Below, one piece after another: positions 487 through 38,390 of a stretch of 38,390 nucleotides of DNA. The DNA is taken from NCBI GenBank assembly GCA_017449765.1, contig JAFTFE010000003.1:1-38390 (forward strand), given 5' to 3'. Positions within the stretch are counted from its first letter, which is position 1, and every line of letters begins with the position of its first letter. The translations under genes were made by a program, and so were the position numbers. The DNA comes from Lachnospiraceae bacterium. Lineage in GTDB: Bacteria; Bacillota; Clostridia; Lachnospirales; Lachnospiraceae. A model generated the notes under the pieces. It made no database searches and had not been told where the DNA came from. It worked only from the letters and a program-made list of their open reading frames with translations.

Positions 487-1031
487 AATTCATACCTCAC
501 AACTTCGCAGTTCTTTACTCCAAAGGATGAGAACTCCTCGCTATCCATGCTTCTGAAATAGGACTCCACAATCCTTGCAATTCCGTTATGAGCCACAAGA
601 ATATAGGTTTTCTCATCTGATTCTTCTTTGATATCATCCAACAGATTATATATTCTCTGGGCTAAATGCAGCATGGACTCACCACCCTCATAACGGCTGG
701 CACAGTGCTTCTTAGCCTCGTGAAACTCTGCTCCATTTCTTGCAGTAGACTCATATTTTCCAAAATTCTGCTCAATAAGTCTTGGCTCTATTCTCATGGG
801 AATTCCTGTAATCTCCGAAATATGTCTGGCTGTATCTGCGGCTCTTACAAGAGGTGATGACAATATCTCATCTGCACTAATTCCCATCTCTAATATCTTA
901 TAACCGGTTTCCATTGCCTGCTGATGCCCAAGCTCTGTCAGTTCTATATCCGTAGCTCCACATATTTTATTTTCCACGTTCCACACAGTCTGTCCGTGTC
1001 TCACAAAATAAAAGTGTCCCTTCTTATCCAT
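483..1031 (-). CDS. Histidine phosphatase family protein (phosphoglycerate-mutase-like)
   Basis: A cytosolic phosphatase of the branch-1 histidine phosphatase superfamily. The N-terminal FYFVRHGQT motif holds the catalytic RHG triplet (His about residue 12), followed by the usual LTELGHQQA segment. A later VAHNG supplies the second catalytic His, and SSPLVRAADTA matches the conserved SPLxRAxxTA motif. About 182 residues is normal for small members such as CobC- or GpmB-like phosphatases; the substrate cannot be read from sequence. The start is ambiguous: ATG at 1031 or GTG at 1040, the latter overlapping the sirtuin stop codon as GTGA. Either way the gene is translationally coupled to the sirtuin gene upstream, which suggests a joint function. 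Confidence 0.88.
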   Translation of the reverse strand: MDKKGHFYFVRHGQTVWNVENKICGATDIELTELGHQQAMETGYKILEMGISADEILSSPLVRAADTARHISEITGIPMRIEPRLIEQNFGKYESTARNGAEFHEAKKHCASRYEGGESMLHLAQRIYNLLDDIKEESDEKTYILVAHNGIARIVESYFRSMDSEEFSSFGVKNCEVVRYEF

Positions 1032-6691: not shown

Positions 6692-7498
6692 TTACTGCTG
6701 ATGTTTCTTACTCCAACTCTTATATATATTCTTATATCTCGTTACATCCTCTCCTATCTGTTCTTCGTAATCAAAATATTCAATTAAAGATGTATATTTT
6801 GATGTAGCAGATCTATATTTAGGATACCCTGCCCAATAATCTTCAAACACTTCATTGCCTAATACAGAGAACGGTCCTTCCCCATTAACTAAACATTCAA
6901 TTCTATTAGTCTTATAAGAACCAATATTTTCAGTATTACCACTTCCAGGTTTTTCTCCTGCTATCTTATACTTTTCTTGGCAAAACACCTCTACATCTTT
7001 GTATGGTACTGGTAAAGATTTTAATTCTTTAAATGAATATATATCTCCCTCACTTGCATCAATATTTCTAGTATAAACAAAACCAATTACGTAATGATTT
7101 GCGTATTGATTATATGGAAATGCAATATTTTTTTTACCATCTCTCATAAAAGATGCATATGAGCCCAAAGTAAATACATATCCTAAAGGCTCTCCAATTC
7201 GATTAAACTTACGATATGTAGTCTTTATATCTATTGCAATTTTCTTAGTATCTTCTTTACTTTTCATGAGAGTAAAATCTGGATAAACAGTTTGTGCTGG
7301 AGAAGTATATAAAATGTATCCATATTCATCTGCTATTTCCTGAAGTATACTCTTTGAAATAAGTTCAAAAATACGTCCTATTAATTTTGAATCACTACCA
7401 AGTGAATATAGATTTCCATTTGGTGCTGCTAAAGCACTTACTTCCCAATCAATTTTCCTCTCTAAAATTTTTTCGTTAAAGACTTTAATAAAATCCAT
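6692..7498 (-). CDS. EcoRV-family type II restriction endonuclease
   Basis: 268 residues, clearly homologous to EcoRV (245 residues), which cuts GATATC bluntly at its centre. The PD...D-x-K catalytic site is complete and keeps EcoRV numbering: Asp74 in YPDFTL and Asp90/Lys92 in AIDIKT, with Glu45 in FEL. The DNA-recognition loop is preserved as GSGNTENIGS (185-194), matching the EcoRV loop that reads the outer bases, so GATATC specificity is likely. FTLGSYASF and HYVIGFVYTR are also family-conserved. The gene lies 12 bp downstream of its methyltransferase on the same strand. It is more AT-rich than its neighbours, which points to horizontal transfer. Confidence 0.95.
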   Translation of the reverse strand: MDFIKVFNEKILERKIDWEVSALAAPNGNLYSLGSDSKLIGRIFELISKSILQEIADEYGYILYTSPAQTVYPDFTLMKSKEDTKKIAIDIKTTYRKFNRIGEPLGYVFTLGSYASFMRDGKKNIAFPYNQYANHYVIGFVYTRNIDASEGDIYSFKELKSLPVPYKDVEVFCQEKYKIAGEKPGSGNTENIGSYKTNRIECLVNGEGPFSVLGNEVFEDYWAGYPKYRSATSKYTSLIEYFDYEEQIGEDVTRYKNIYKSWSKKHQQ

Positions 7499-7510
7499 AT
7501 TTCATCCCTT

Positions 7511-8431
7511 TCATATTGCAATTTCATTTTTTAGATAATCAGTAATCATCATTTGCCGACCATTTCTCGTTGAATTATTATTACAAGTAGTCGGATCATA
7601 ATTCATCAAAAGAGCTTCCATCATTGAATTTCTATTTTTTTCATTTGCTCCAACATGATAAAAATGTTCCTTATTCAATTTATAACATTCGCTCCATATT
7701 CTTTCAATATACTCATTTTTTCGATATTTATTTTCATCCCATGTAGACAACATAAATCTTGCTCCAGACGAATACAGAGCATTTTTCAGTGCAATTTCAT
7801 GTTCTTCGTCCCAGCTATCATAATAGTCAACATGCCTACCTATATAAGGAGGATCACAATATATAAAATCTTCAACTCCAGCTTTTTCTATAGTTTTCTC
7901 AAAAGGACAACAAACAAATTCCCAATCATTCTCAGGAAATATGTTTTCCAAATGCTTAACCTGATTAACTATTTTAGTCACATAGGCTTTTGCAAACCTA
8001 TTAGGCTTATGCCCATATGGTACATTAAATTTGTACTCTCTATTAAAACGAATCATCCCATTAAAACAACTTCTATTTAGGAACAGAAAATCAAGAGGGT
8101 CATGTTTTTTATTAAATCTATCTCTTATATAATAATAATGTTCACCATCTTTTTGAGCTAGAATAGCTCCCTCATATTCTAAATATTCTCTAACTATTTG
8201 AGAAGTAATTTTTTTCTTTTTAATCGCATTATATAAATCTATTGTGTATGGATTTGTATCCGAGAAAACAGCTTTATGAGGTGCCAAGTTTAATCCAACA
8301 ACACCTGATCCCATAAAGGGTTCATACCAAGTACTATTCTGTTCCATATAAATATTTTCAGATATTAGATCAACGAGTTTCGTCTTAATGCCTTGTATCT
8401 TTATCGGCGGTACAAATACTTTATCTATCAT
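7511..8431 (-). CDS. DNA adenine N6-methyltransferase (Dam/M.EcoRV type)
   Basis: 306-residue class alpha adenine methyltransferase. The AdoMet motif I is EPFMGSGVVGLN (residues 37-48), the catalytic motif IV is DPPY (193-196), and NRSCFNGMIRFN (119-130) matches the conserved Dam-family segment. It belongs with the EcoRV-type endonuclease 12 bp downstream and should methylate an adenine in GATATC, protecting the host: GATATC sites do occur in this window (for example 2849, 3080, 5461). Start ATG 8431 is preceded by AGGAGG. No C-protein controller gene is seen; with the methylase first in the operon, order of expression may suffice. The 275-bp AT-rich stretch upstream should hold the promoter. 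Confidence 0.94.
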   Translation of the reverse strand: MIDKVFVPPIKIQGIKTKLVDLISENIYMEQNSTWYEPFMGSGVVGLNLAPHKAVFSDTNPYTIDLYNAIKKKKITSQIVREYLEYEGAILAQKDGEHYYYIRDRFNKKHDPLDFLFLNRSCFNGMIRFNREYKFNVPYGHKPNRFAKAYVTKIVNQVKHLENIFPENDWEFVCCPFEKTIEKAGVEDFIYCDPPYIGRHVDYYDSWDEEHEIALKNALYSSGARFMLSTWDENKYRKNEYIERIWSECYKLNKEHFYHVGANEKNRNSMMEALLMNYDPTTCNNNSTRNGRQMMITDYLKNEIAI

Positions 8432-8706
8432 ATATATCCTCCTGTTTTCATAATTATATTAAATTACAGTTATATATATAAGTTGTAAATAATATTACTT
8501 TAATATTTCACCTCATTGTATTCCAATATAAAATATTTACGATACAATGTATCTATTCAAAAAATTTATCATAATAATTGGTAACAATCAAGCATATATT
8601 AAACTTTATATTTTTATGTTTTATGAAATTATTATTTTAAACAGTATGTTATCCCTATATAAGTTTTTTACACCTAATTATTACTTAAAATCTAACTTCT
8701 TAATTT

Positions 8707-9099
8707 TCACCTTAATGTATTGCCAACCTTCTCCGCTAATGCTTCCTGTAATATCTTGGAAAAATTAAAGCCTCTCTTCTCCGCCTCAGCATTAAGGTAA
8801 TATGGTATTGTACAATTCTTCCTAACTGTTCTGTTATCATGTCTCATTCGATATTCCGTAAAATCCACATCCACAAGAGTTTCAATATCCCCATCTTCTT
8901 TATCAATAGTTCTTGAATAAGGTTCTGGTAATTCCTTCCCCTCATCCTCCAGTTCAATACCCAACAGCCCAATCGCATCTCTTGCCATAAATATAGCATC
9001 TCCCAGATTCTTGCCTTCAGTAACAGACCTGAAATCCGGTATTCTTACTACATATCCCTCTCCATCCTTTGAAAGTATAACAGGATATACCTTAACCAT
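8707..9099 (-). CDS. hicB: HicB-family antitoxin with ribbon-helix-helix C-terminus
   Basis: 130 residues. The N-terminal half is the degraded RNase H-like HicB fold (VKVYPVILSKDGEGYVVRIP followed by a DFxxVTEGKNLGDAIFMARDA segment); the C-terminal RKNCTIPYYLNAEAEKRGFN with SKILQEALAEKVG is a ribbon-helix-helix DNA-binding domain. It should neutralise HicA and repress the operon. ATG 9099 is chosen because GGAGG lies 8 bases upstream, inside an apparent longer start at 9114. It follows hicA by 5 bp. Confidence 0.92.
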   Translation of the reverse strand: MVKVYPVILSKDGEGYVVRIPDFRSVTEGKNLGDAIFMARDAIGLLGIELEDEGKELPEPYSRTIDKEDGDIETLVDVDFTEYRMRHDNRTVRKNCTIPYYLNAEAEKRGFNFSKILQEALAEKVGNTLR

Positions 9100-9104
9100 T
9101 ATCA

Positions 9105-9284
9105 TTACCTCCATTCAATTCCAGCTTCGCTAAGTATCCCTCTTGCCGTTATCTCTTTGATCTCTTTATGTCTCGGAACAGATATATTATAACTACCATT
9201 GCTGTATATATCATGATTGGAACCATTCCTTAACAAAACCCAGCCGTTCTTTTTTAAAAGCTTTATCAAATCCTTCTTTTTCAT
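9105..9284 (-). CDS. hicA: HicA-family mRNA interferase toxin
   Basis: 59 residues, the usual HicA size, with a single double-stranded-RNA-binding-like fold: KKKDLIKLLKKNGWVLLRNGS followed at once by NHDIYSNGSYNISVPRHKEI. The His in GSNHDIY is the expected catalytic residue. HicA toxins cleave mRNA at the ribosome. ATG 9284 has AGGAG 8 bases upstream; a longer frame from 9338 would begin inside the promoter and is rejected. Toxin first, antitoxin second is the standard hicAB order. Confidence 0.92.
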   Translation of the reverse strand: MKKKDLIKLLKKNGWVLLRNGSNHDIYSNGSYNISVPRHKEIKEITARGILSEAGIEWR

Positions 9285-9298
9285 AAGTCTTCTCCTGA

Positions 9299-9366
9299 GT
9301 TCAAATATAATTATACGCATTATATACGCATTAGTCAATATATTATACTATATACTATATTTGAAC
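9299..9366 (-). promoter_or_regulatory. hicAB promoter flanked by inverted operator arms
   Basis: TTGACT (9338-9333), 17 bp, TATAAT (9315-9310) on the minus strand is a near-consensus promoter. Exact 11-bp inverted arms, GTTCAAATATA at 9299-9309 and TATATTTGAAC at 9356-9366, lie directly past the -10 and upstream of the -35. Two HicB dimers could bind the arms and close the promoter between them; that is inference from placement. Confidence 0.65.
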
Positions 9367-9370
9367 CCAT

Positions 9371-9418
9371 TATATCAAAACTGCAGTACATTTTTTTGTA
9401 CTGCGGGTTTGATATAAT
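9371..9418. promoter_or_regulatory. Palindrome with outward-facing extended -10 elements
   Basis: A 20-bp inverted repeat with two mismatches (9371-9390 with 9397-9416, loop of six T). Each arm carries TTTGATATAAT-like sequence, giving an extended -10 on the plus strand (TGATATAAT ending at 9418) and another on the minus strand (ending at 9369). The plus-strand one fits transcription of the small peptide locus starting near 9425. No clear -35 is present for either. Confidence 0.5.
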
Positions 9419-9508
9419 AAATGCGGGTGCTATCCATACGGTGGCGGTTATGCCTTTTTATGTACATAACTTATGTGCGAAAGCTTCCTTGGCATGTAAG
9501 GGGGTGAT

Positions 9509-9571
9509 ATGCGAATGAGGAAAGTATTTAGAAAGGATATGCTTATATGTGGACTATCATCGGTGCCATAG
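9509..9571 (+). CDS. 20-residue leader peptide overlapping the membrane-peptide start
   Basis: ATG 9509 follows an unusually strong ribosome binding site (AAGGGGGTGAT). The frame encodes a basic N-terminus, MRMRKVFRKD, and stops at 9571, 25 bases inside the next gene in another frame. The layout resembles mok in hok/sok, where translating a leader frame controls the toxin frame. Translation is not proven. Confidence 0.4.
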   Translation: MRMRKVFRKDMLICGLSSVP

Positions 9572-9669
9572 CTACGGTTGTATGTGCTGTTTTTGCAATA
9601 TTAACCTATATGCATGACATTAAGAAAGATAAGAAACAAAAAGAGCAACCGCCTCAGCCAAAGGTTTAA
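9547..9669 (+). CDS. Small single-helix membrane peptide, candidate type I toxin
   Basis: 40 residues: MWTIIGAIATVVCAVFAILT forms one membrane helix, followed by YMHDIKKDKKQKEQ, a strongly basic tail, and a Pro-rich end. This is the architecture of type I toxins (Fst, TxpA, holin-like toxins), although I cannot match it to one of those families by sequence. AAGGA lies 9 bases upstream. The stop codon falls in the loop of a bidirectional terminator. A promoter on the opposite strand drives an antisense RNA over the 3' end. It is one of only a few plus-strand genes and sits next to hicAB. Confidence 0.65.
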   Translation: MWTIIGAIATVVCAVFAILTYMHDIKKDKKQKEQPPQPKV

Positions 9670-9684
9670 GGTTGCTCTTTTTGT
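9636..9684. terminator. Shared bidirectional terminator
   Basis: A perfect 15-bp stem (9636-9650 with 9670-9684; core AAAAAGAGCAACC) with A and T runs on both sides can stop transcripts from either direction. It contains the last codons of the membrane peptide gene. Confidence 0.88.
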
Positions 9685-9727
9685 AACTAACAAACCAAAG
9701 GCATAACCGTCACTGGATAGTGCCTTC
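9636..9727 (-). ncRNA. Candidate antisense antitoxin RNA
   Basis: From the minus-strand promoter at 9762-9734 a transcript of about 90 bases would start near 9727 and end at the shared terminator. It would be fully complementary to the 3' end of the membrane-peptide mRNA over about 50 bases, and its 5' leader repeats the mRNA leader. It has no start codon with a ribosome binding site. Existence is predicted from promoter and terminator only. Confidence 0.55.
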
Positions 9728-9733
9728 GCATTT

Positions 9734-9762
9734 ATAGTAACACTATTTCATATATTCGTCAA
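9734..9762 (-). promoter_or_regulatory. Promoter of the candidate antisense RNA
   Basis: TTGACG (9762-9757), exactly 17 bp, TACTAT (9739-9734). It faces the small-peptide gene and has no protein gene to serve on this strand before the terminator. Confidence 0.6.
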
Positions 9763-9815: not shown

Positions 9816-11021
9816 CTATCTACTCTCCATACTCTTCATACTCTTCATACTCTTCATACTCTCCGCACTCACCGTACTCTCCGTACTCTTCATATTCTCC
9901 AAATTCTCCACATACTCTGCAATAGTCCACCCATTCTCGTCACATTCCTTCTTCATCGCAGCAAAAATTTCACAGTCCGATTTTGAAAGTCCTGCAAGGA
10001 ATAAAGCAACCAACAGACATATACATATGATCATAAGAAAGAAGAAAACTGCATCAAGTCCACTTTCAAAGAAATCAGTATTCGCTTCACCGGATAATAT
10101 TCCCAATGCATCAAGGACCATAACAAGTCCGGCGCCAAACAATCCTCCACCGATAGTCGATGCAATAGTCGTAATCTTCTTTCTTCTGTAATCATACCGC
10201 TTAGTAAGCTTATCCATAAACTCTTCATTCGTAAAAGGCTGTTTTCCCTTCTTTTCCCTTTTCTTATTCTTCTTTTCAAACTGCTTAAGCCAGGTCTTTG
10301 GAAGCTCCGTCTCCAAATTAGCATTTATCATATCCTTCATAGTAATCTTCTCTACCTTAGGCTCACGCACCGTTCCATATTTCCTATAATTCTTAACTGC
10401 CCGCATAACTGCATAAATGATAATATACACGCCAAGAACTGCAAGAAGTATATATCGGGGAAATATTATATCTAAGCGGTCATCCATAATACCTACAGTT
10501 ATTACAGCTGCAATAATTGATACAATACTAACAACAGCCGTAATCCTATCATATATTTTTACAGAAAGCTTTTTCTTGAGAAATAGCGGATTAAGTATTA
10601 TATTGATCAATAAAACAGTTATCATACCACAGGCAACTCCACACATATATGGAAATAATACACCACTTCCACCTGTAAAAAACGGTTCCTCATCCATCAG
10701 GATCAAACCATCAATAAGCTCTAAGACAAACAGAAATTTCGCCATGCCATATATCCAGCGAAATGTACCCTGTATACGATCTTTAAGTGTATACCTGCTG
10801 TAAAAATCCATACAGAAGCGGTCTATATCTGTACCAACGATCTTTTCCACAGGCTCACCTGCTTCCTGTGCCTCCAGCATGCTATCCAATAATTCCATCA
10901 ACCATTCACCACCAACTTCCGCATCGATGTTGTTAGCAGAACCATACGCCTCAACAATATCAAACGCTTCCCTATACTCCTTATTTAATTTGTCCTCATA
11001 AGCTATATATCCCAGATTCAT
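9816..11021 (-). CDS. DUF1048-like membrane protein with a repetitive C-terminal tail
   Basis: 401 residues. An N-terminal cytosolic helical region (about 1-75, with WLMELLDSMLEAQEAGEPVE and KIVGTDIDRFCMDF) resembles the DUF1048 domain found beside PadR regulators. It is followed by membrane helices near 90-107, 120-142, 160-180 and 190-208, a charged cytosolic segment (KQFEKKNKKREKKGKQ), and two more helices at about 290-345. The tail is a run of Ser-Met-Lys and related triplets coded by 9-bp repeats. The PadR gene 127 bp upstream probably regulates it. The function is unknown; PadR-linked membrane proteins are often involved in envelope or drug stress. Confidence 0.75.
   Translation of the reverse strand: MNLGYIAYEDKLNKEYREAFDIVEAYGSANNIDAEVGGEWLMELLDSMLEAQEAGEPVEKIVGTDIDRFCMDFYSRYTLKDRIQGTFRWIYGMAKFLFVLELIDGLILMDEEPFFTGGSGVLFPYMCGVACGMITVLLINIILNPLFLKKKLSVKIYDRITAVVSIVSIIAAVITVGIMDDRLDIIFPRYILLAVLGVYIIIYAVMRAVKNYRKYGTVREPKVEKITMKDMINANLETELPKTWLKQFEKKNKKREKKGKQPFTNEEFMDKLTKRYDYRRKKITTIASTIGGGLFGAGLVMVLDALGILSGEANTDFFESGLDAVFFFLMIICICLLVALFLAGLSKSDCEIFAAMKKECDENGWTIAEYVENLENMKSTESTVSAESMKSMKSMKSMESR
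9821..9897. repeat. 9-bp tandem repeat within a coding end
   Basis: Units of TACTCTTCA and close variants (TACTCTCCA, TACTCTCCG, CACTCACCG) repeat about eight times. The 9-bp unit keeps the reading frame, so copy changes alter only the length of the C-terminal tail of the DUF1048-like protein. Confidence 0.8.
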
Positions 11022-38135: not shown

Positions 38136-38259
38136 ATTATTCCTCGCATTTCTATCTATCTCACAACATTACTGTTTAGTGAATTTTTGTTTTTTATCAC
38201 GTACACAGGTAAACTGACAGCATGGTGCGTTTTGTATGACTTTCTGTACGGTGATAAGA

Positions 38260-38390
38260 GTTTCTAAGTATCCCGTTAAAGCCTTAATGACGTACGCGGC
38301 AAGGTGCTTAGTCGCCCTCCGTGGCTCCGGCGCACCTGCTCGGCATCCATGCCTCGCATCCGCTGGGTATTTATCGGGATACTAAGAAAC
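38260..38390. repeat. GC-rich structured element bounded by 21-bp inverted repeats
   Basis: 38260-38280 and 38370-38390 are reverse complements at 19 of 21 positions (core AGTATCCCG/CGGGATACT). The 89 bp between is about two-thirds GC, against an AT-rich surround, and folds further: AGGTGC with GCACCT and GGCAT-CC-ATGCC. No reading frame runs across it on either strand with a start. The right arm ends at the last base of the window, so it may continue. It could be a structured RNA or a small mobile repeat. Confidence 0.6.

Follow-up and report, generated by a model that had tools for sequence, protein, structure and literature searches.

Type I toxin-antitoxin-like loci with near-identical RNA leaders, conserved across Lachnospiraceae

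Introduction

The locus described here is best compared with par/Fst, hok/mok/sok, the Hol_Tox relatives and the type I toxin-antitoxin modules of Clostridioides difficile. Within these, sok is a 5' antisense RNA, and txpA/RatA and bsrG/SR4 are characterised relatives of Hol_Tox, RatA and SR4 being convergent RNAs with 3' overlap. The par locus, as outlined in PMC7472228, has convergent promoters, a bidirectional terminator, complementary 3' ends, a toxin Shine-Dalgarno (SD) sequence that is hidden by a 5' stem-loop, and a small peptide product. Translation of hok depends on coupling to mok, in the account of PMC11228461, and long-distance locking between the 5' and 3' ends is known for hok-like and aapA mRNAs (in the relevant part of PMC6733600). 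The C. difficile modules (CD0956.2/RCd10 and others) are described as convergent, with a long 3' overlap and peptides that have a hydrophobic N-terminus and a positive tail, and they are reported to lack homology with those of other bacteria (PMC6563280, PMC7699646). Here we analyse a locus in a 38,390-nucleotide stretch from a Lachnospiraceae bacterium (assembly GCA_017449765.1, contig JAFTFE010000003.1, positions 1 to 38,390; this whole stretch is called the window), which, judged from its sequence, is a chromosomal type I toxin-antitoxin-like locus with a probability of roughly 0.75.

The window locus belongs, as a divergent member, to a large family in Lachnospiraceae. Sequence comparison indicates that the family is real and conserved, that it is type I toxin-antitoxin-like and that its leaders are arranged in an unusual way. 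Searches of open-licence papers gave no account of any Lachnospiraceae type I toxin-antitoxin family, and in a review of the type I modules of Clostridia the names Lachnospir-, Eubacterium, Ruminococc- and Butyrivibrio do not occur. The initial annotation had called the arrangement undescribed, which is consistent with Pfam, NCBIfam, Rfam and that literature, with the qualification that some of the module peptides in other genomes are known Hol_Tox proteins.

Results

Near-identical leaders and a common terminator

The two predicted RNAs converge on a bidirectional terminator (Table 1). Because both would end there, their 3' ends would be complementary, and because the 5' regions form an inverted repeat, the two RNAs would also start alike. 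The leaders correspond to a 22-nt inverted repeat with 86% identity (9436-9457/9697-9718), and local alignment of the leader regions gives a score of 33; none of 500 dinucleotide shuffles scores above 32 (their maximum), and the direct, complementary orientation scores 13. This agrees with the initial annotation, which had described near-identical leaders created by inverted repeats and had pointed out that they are identical, not complementary, unlike those of par. The other parts that it had listed (a 40-residue single-helix peptide gene, a 20-residue leader frame that has a very strong ribosome site and overlaps the peptide start as mok does that of hok, a TTGACG-17-TACTAT promoter facing the gene, and one 15-bp terminator for both RNAs) are all present.

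The peptide has a hydropathy of 2.43 across 19 residues and a tail charge of +3. The start of the leader open reading frame (ORF) is preceded by AAGGGGGTG, and this frame overlaps the peptide frame by 25 nt. Strong folds are predicted for the minus strand at 9630-9728 (z = -5.0) and for the plus strand at 9425-9684 (z = -3.1). A simple terminator scan missed the 15-bp stem because the loop is 19 nt long and the scan permits 3-8; the predicted fold closes part of this loop. The SD of the leader ORF has a paired probability of 1.00 in the window, versus 0.63 when the upstream sequence is shuffled, and in 82 of 100 loci the SD is more paired than with shuffled upstream sequence (mean 0.81 versus 0.67).

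Database searches at the locus gave no assignment at the usual thresholds. The window peptide matches no Pfam or NCBIfam model at its cut-off, has no match to Hol_Tox (PF16935) up to E = 10 in the Pfam search, and there are zero Rfam matches at the gathering level. With a loose E-value Rfam gives seven matches in five loci, all far under the cut-offs and not retained, the best being a plastid 3'UTR model at the window terminator (30.2 bits versus a cut-off of 55.8). DNA comparison found no second copy of the region in its own genome, and the window DNA has no match among plasmids and phages.

Leader-terminator complementarity

The core of the mRNA leader, GG[C/T]GG[T/C]T, is complementary to the terminator arm A[A/G]CC[G/A]CC of the same mRNA, and the two change together across 108 loci. 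The starting material was 161 leader rows in 147 loci, where pieces of long proteins (e.g., L187, L223) were dropped by later filters; the 108 are what is left after removing 42 rows with no recognisable mRNA leader, 7 duplicates, 2 with no arm and 2 with no core. The arm was picked for its resemblance to the family consensus and not to the leader of its locus, and two arms (L160, L184) were mis-read in the count, to the disadvantage of the claim. The two variable leader-arm pairs are Watson-Crick in 102 and 78 of the 108 loci (shuffled means 93.1 and 67.1), values that are reached by 0 and 2 of 5000 shuffles, respectively, with 3 and 1 mismatches where 7.5 and 6.5 are expected. For the next pair outward the count is 67/108 (shuffled 56.6; reached by 1 of 5000 shuffles). 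Among the rows listed, the coupled leader/arm changes include CGGUU/AACCG, UGGUU/AACCA and CGGCU/AGCCG, and L217 and L218, which are copies in one genome, have mRNA leaders that differ in a leader/arm-matched way.

Covariation with the arm is weaker for the antitoxin leader, whose core is the same (84/92 and 65/92 loci; 40 and 13 of 5000 shuffles). At the position where the mRNA leader has G it cannot pair with the arm: of 92 loci, 88 have an A facing the C of the arm and 2 have a C, a mismatch in 90 in all. Within a locus the two leaders are also alike: after 66 of the 161 rows were dropped, the sense and antisense 8-mers are identical in 43 of 95 loci, with a mean of 6.94/8 matches versus 5.88 for relabelled pairs (maximum mean 6.14 in 2000).

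The initial annotation had suggested a different regulatory logic from par. Pairing between leader and terminator is a concrete candidate for it, for which the covariation argues and the computed mRNA fold does not (see Discussion). We consider it plausible that the mRNA leader would lock the mRNA in cis and that the antitoxin leader would visit the same site in trans; the covariation supports the 5'-3' pairing within the mRNA, while the pairing itself is what we infer.

Two earlier counts were set aside. A preliminary covariation count over 90 loci had faulty arm extraction and is superseded (position 2: 77 versus 72.3, maximum 78; position 5: 64 versus 54.6, maximum 63). An unanchored comparison of leaders at 390 terminator-like stems, which includes non-members and tandem copies and is unused, did not separate the orientations (mean 18.0 inverted and 20.7 direct; scores of at least 24, 61 versus 26; at least 28, 14 versus 20).

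Relatives and distribution

Used as a query by itself, the window peptide brings up no convincing relative among 37 genomes of the genus; the best foreign matches (E = 0.008 to 0.013) fall inside frames of 500 aa and were discounted. The initial annotation had called for a search for the leader in inverted pairs. The exact window pair is found in its own genome only, 1 of 397 family genomes, the pattern being too strict, and relatives emerge through the leader and through intermediate sequences. A promoter-plus-leader DNA match in another species of the genus (locus L033, E = 1.9e-4) is again a convergent locus, with a different peptide, MLTTELFIAIISLCITCFALGYTVGSKSNNKTQK, and with leaders that are again alike. 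With the L033 peptide as query, 70 of 299 family genomes give a match at E <=0.01, where a few of the weakest matches fall within long frames, and 60 of 245 among genomes of good quality, with up to 6 copies per genome; counted by genera, this peptide type occurs in 70 of 298 sampled at an E of 0.01 or better. Of the 95 distinct places reached in this way, the antitoxin leader has at least 19/25 matches to GGTGCTACCGATAGACGGTTAGYCC in 75, the mRNA leader has at least 13/16 matches in 66, and both leaders are present in 59; the remaining places are divergent, truncated or cut by a contig end. What had been taken as decisive, conservation in Lachnospiraceae relatives (of the peptide, both promoters, the terminator and the paired leaders), is seen for the family, and not for the exact pair in the window.

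The antitoxin leader pattern, with up to 3 mismatches, gives 24 matches in 18 of the 37 genus genomes, as compared with one for the reversed pattern. Its exact form is matched in GTDB genomes in at least 119 stretches, whose titles include, among the matches listed, Blautia, Coprococcus comes, Roseburia, Butyrivibrio, Eubacterium ramulus, Fusicatenibacter and Oribacterium, and the leader is also found in 11 stretches of viral contigs. The exact-leader set contains 117 distinct sites (137 minus 16 contig-end cuts and 4 repeats), with an mRNA leader in 92, a small hydrophobic ORF in 90 and both in 85. Two exact matches (L239, L274) are in records titled Anaerovibrio lipolyticus and Selenomonadaceae (a metagenome-assembled genome), outside Lachnospiraceae, by transfer or binning error.

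One RNA module carries several unlike peptides. When ten peptides of the module, picked by eye, were compared with the Hol_Tox model, three scored above its cut-off and a fourth just below. Hol_Tox peptides as such are present in 35 of the 120 family genomes searched, in 34 above the cut-off. Thirty Lachnospiraceae Hol_Tox loci gave 25 readable ORFs, about 4 of which (L396, L399, L403, L410) have signs of paired leaders. At seven of the 25 (L382, L383, L385, L387, L388, L406, L411) there is another downstream element on the opposite strand, of about CGCCCACA...GTGGTYRRCC, which is perhaps a second type of regulator. An SPbeta-like phage with a Hol_Tox-like peptide has no inverted leaders at its locus.

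Some single members are worth describing. The genome of the window has a second antitoxin-type leader (L157, G000:C108:2617-2639) with no recognisable toxin ORF; relatives that have an ORF are present in L158, L165 and L166. An intact member (L376, 2899-3200) is located at about 160,130-160,480 of NC_012780.1, the large plasmid of [Eubacterium] eligens ATCC 27750, with a MATE efflux gene on either side. At the members checked on two Lachnospira eligens plasmids, the annotation has no feature.

Window subfamily and coding selection

Two loci, L160 and L155, bridge the family to the window (MFLEIIGIIVTVISIAVTVVSIYLNIKEHKNSNHSR and MILDIVGIVVTVMSIIITIISILLTIKEHKNSNHSDQR, respectively), and L185 is closest to the window by eye among the rows listed, with IIG-IATV-CA in common. 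A profile of the window, L160 and L155 finds 22 further short-frame places, the window excluded, at E <=1e-5 in 11 of 397 genomes, 4 of them with an internal stop; 96 of the 397 match overall, many only in pieces of long proteins. Short ORFs with a strong SD recur at the toxin start in this subfamily, either overlapping it or directly adjoining it. Under strict criteria 17 of 31 loci have one, the window among them; some of the 14 misses do not have the upstream part, and L217, L218 and L225 look similar by eye yet fall outside the criteria.

Single-base codon differences in the toxins are mostly at third positions, which argues that the toxin sequence is under selection. The counts, which are pairwise so that one change is counted many times, are 2865 third, 518 first and 119 second for 26 main-type toxins, 3025, 814 and 312 for 30 type-b toxins, and 342, 82 and 117 for 12 toxins of the window subfamily. 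For nine leader ORFs they are 20, 65 and 34, and in the subfamily tested there is no visible selection on the leader-ORF amino-acid sequence. This pattern suggests that translation of the leader ORF as such, rather than its peptide, may matter.

Promoters and LexA-type boxes

Sites with at least 9/12 promoter matches are present upstream of the mRNA leader in 82 of 101 loci (16.1 in shuffles) and upstream of the antitoxin leader in 88 of 101 (20.0 in shuffles). The LexA motif of Bacillus subtilis and clostridia is given as GAAC-N4-GTTC/T in PMC4234289. An exact box of this type is in the toxin promoter of 19 of 102 relative loci and in the antitoxin promoter of 0 of the same 102, with 0.3 expected in each case. 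With one mismatch allowed there are 28 on the toxin side (5.7 expected) and 12 on the antitoxin side (4.3 expected), and so the contrast between the two promoters rests on the exact sites, because the one-mismatch sites also exceed expectation on the antitoxin side. In a second set, drawn from the exact antitoxin leader and overlapping the first partly in species, the exact box occurs in 24 of 90 loci (0.20 expected). These boxes suggest SOS control of the toxin promoter in relatives, not in the window.

The inverted repeat across the toxin promoter in the window creates a mirror-image extended -10 (TGATATAAT) directed toward hicA. One other exact copy of its AGTACA-N6-TGTACT core is present in the genome, where a search that tolerates one mismatch gives no enrichment (10 sites versus 11 for the reversed pattern).

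Table 1. Features of the convergent locus, in window coordinates
Feature	Position	Strand	Basis or remark
Inverted repeat, 22 nt, across toxin promoter; core AGTACA-N6-TGTACT at 9385-9402	9369-9418	both	candidate operator
Toxin-mRNA promoter, extended -10 TGATATAAT	9410-9418	+	weak -35
mRNA 5' leader	9425-9457	+	GGCGGTT (9443-9449) complementary to AACCGCC (9647-9653)
Hairpin hiding leader-ORF SD (CTTCCTT / AAGGGGG)	9483-9505	+	fold prediction
Leader ORF, 20 aa, mok-like	9509-9571	+	overlaps toxin start, out of frame
Putative toxin, 40 aa, MWTIIGAIATVVCAVFAILTYMHDIKKDKKQKEQPPQPKV	9547-9669	+	ORF reading; one hydrophobic helix, then basic tail
Bidirectional terminator, perfect 15-bp stem	9636-9650/9670-9684	both	covers last codons of toxin; common complementary 3' end of both RNAs
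Putative antitoxin RNA, ~92 nt	9636-9727	-	ends predicted; same arrangement in relatives
Antitoxin 5' leader, near-identical to mRNA leader	9697-9727	-	inverted repeat, alignment
Antitoxin promoter TTGACG-17-TACTAT, extended -10 TG	9734-9762	-	promoter scan; similar sites across relatives

Genomic setting

The neighbours at window 6692-9338 (minus strand) are an EcoRV-type endonuclease (PF09233), a D12 adenine methyltransferase (PF02086) and a HicB/HicA pair. The L033 locus (822-932, minus strand) is flanked, as read by eye, by an HsdS-like and an HsdR-like gene of type I restriction. Flanking genes were scanned in a sample (140 of 202 genes from 80 of 119 loci; control, 140 of 154 genes; the best 25 families listed for each). 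Among the flanking genes, N6_Mtase and Methylase_S are matched 3 times each and PADLOC type I methylase models up to 5 times, and none of these restriction-modification families is among the 25 listed for the 140 control genes, which have defence-model matches of their own (mad2 4, mad8 4 and one Cas9). A restriction-modification neighbourhood for the family stays a hint, because the best 25 families were listed per scan.

Two other features of the window are a 401-aa ORF at 9816-11021 (minus strand), whose C-terminal end (9816-9925) is encoded by an imperfect 9-nt tandem repeat, and a TwoAYGGAY RNA (RF01731) at 38243-38390 (minus strand, 64.5 bits), which is cut by the window end.

Discussion

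The resemblance to a type I toxin-antitoxin system that was proposed for this locus draws its support from the conservation, across the family, of the peptide, the promoters, the terminator and the paired leaders. In the mechanism that we propose, the plus strand would give an mRNA of ~260 nt for the 40-residue membrane peptide and the minus strand an antisense RNA of ~92 nt, and pairing of their complementary 3' ends would silence or destroy the mRNA. The mRNA would also lock itself: the ribosome site of the leader ORF lies within a predicted hairpin, and the 5' leader GGCGGUU could pair with AACCGCC at the mRNA's own 3' end. Translation of the toxin would depend on translation of the overlapping leader ORF, as for mok. 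The antitoxin leader would repeat the mRNA-leader element because it must recognise the same site on the mRNA. A membrane-acting peptide would then be set free if a short-lived antitoxin were lost or if the toxin promoter were induced. The transcripts, the toxicity, the pairing, the coupling and the SOS control that enter into this account are all inferred from the features described above. A fuller version can be stated tentatively, as a possibility that we would on balance doubt: the antitoxin would carry a copy of the mRNA leader and compete by mimicry for the 5' arm of the terminator, the module would be swapped among unrelated toxins, and the toxin promoter would often be under LexA. Mimicry for one site would keep the mRNA and antitoxin leaders alike at each locus, i.e., concerted evolution.

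Several points weigh against these proposals. The minimum-energy fold of the whole mRNA retains the terminator hairpin and has no pairing between leader and arm; for the pairing to occur, the mRNA would therefore have to be processed or pass through a folding intermediate, or the pairing would have to act in trans. The covariation shuffles leave common descent in place, and when the count is restricted to the 35 distinct leader/arm combinations, the observed values are reached in 27 and 50 of 5000 shuffles. Two further helix positions have no covariation because they hardly vary. In L217 the mRNA leader follows the arm and the antitoxin leader does not. The toxin promoter of the window scores 8/12, with a poor -35, and has no LexA-type box. 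What is known of the family here (anatomy, conservation, coding selection and covariation) comes from sequence.

The peptide might alternatively be a non-toxic small membrane protein, e.g., a regulator of a membrane enzyme or of division, with an antisense RNA that tunes its dose. Coding selection on the peptides fits such a protein, as does the member between two MATE transporter genes in [Eubacterium] eligens. We think this unlikely, since the several predicted layers of silencing fit an addiction module better, there are up to 6 copies per genome and copies with no intact toxin frame (L157), and unlike peptides share one RNA module that has a link to Hol_Tox. A similarly low probability applies to the idea that the identical leaders bind a common factor (an RNA-binding protein or a paused polymerase) and not the terminator. 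The antitoxin leader is indeed very conserved, with 25/25 matches in 11 of 95 places and at least 22 in 60, and one fixed position of it is mismatched to the arm in nearly every locus (90 of 92); that leader and terminator arm change together argues the other way.

Membership in the Fst/par family of enterococcal and staphylococcal plasmids and chromosomes is very improbable. The convergent promoters, bidirectional terminator, hidden SD and small helix with a charged tail would suit it, but it fails because the repeats here are inverted, not direct (33 versus 13), and no Pfam or NCBIfam model matches at its cut-off. We give just as little credence to a chance arrangement, or a repeat element with no gene function: the uniqueness of the exact leader pair of the window among 397 family genomes would fit it, but the architecture is conserved in many genera together with coding selection. 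With a candidate RNA logic seen in the covariation and SOS-type boxes on the toxin side, regulation, stress response and element maintenance become directly testable in Lachnospiraceae, which are common gut bacteria, and searches with the antitoxin leader can locate such loci independently of the peptide that they encode.

As compared with known systems, the locus is like par/Fst (RNA I/RNA II of pAD1 and relatives) in its convergent promoters, common bidirectional terminator, hidden SD and small peptide. It differs in that the par repeats are direct and the RNAs complementary there, according to PMC7472228, whereas here the repeats are inverted and the leaders identical; in addition, the window peptide has no family-model match and the window subfamily has a leader ORF. 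The Hol_Tox systems are linked to it by three of ten peptides beside the same antitoxin leader, which pass the Hol_Tox cut-off, and by the 3' overlap of convergent RNAs, and differ from it in that the window peptide has no Hol_Tox match. The C. difficile modules, likened here by description, are also convergent, with a long 3' overlap, a hydrophobic N-terminus and a positive tail. With hok/mok/sok it shares a leader ORF that carries the main ribosome site and overlaps the toxin start, but the antitoxin is here convergent and overlaps the 3' end; a 5'-3' locking of the mRNA, for which the covariation speaks and the computed fold does not, would be a further likeness. By analogy, the locus would work like the hok-type and aapA systems without being a member of either.
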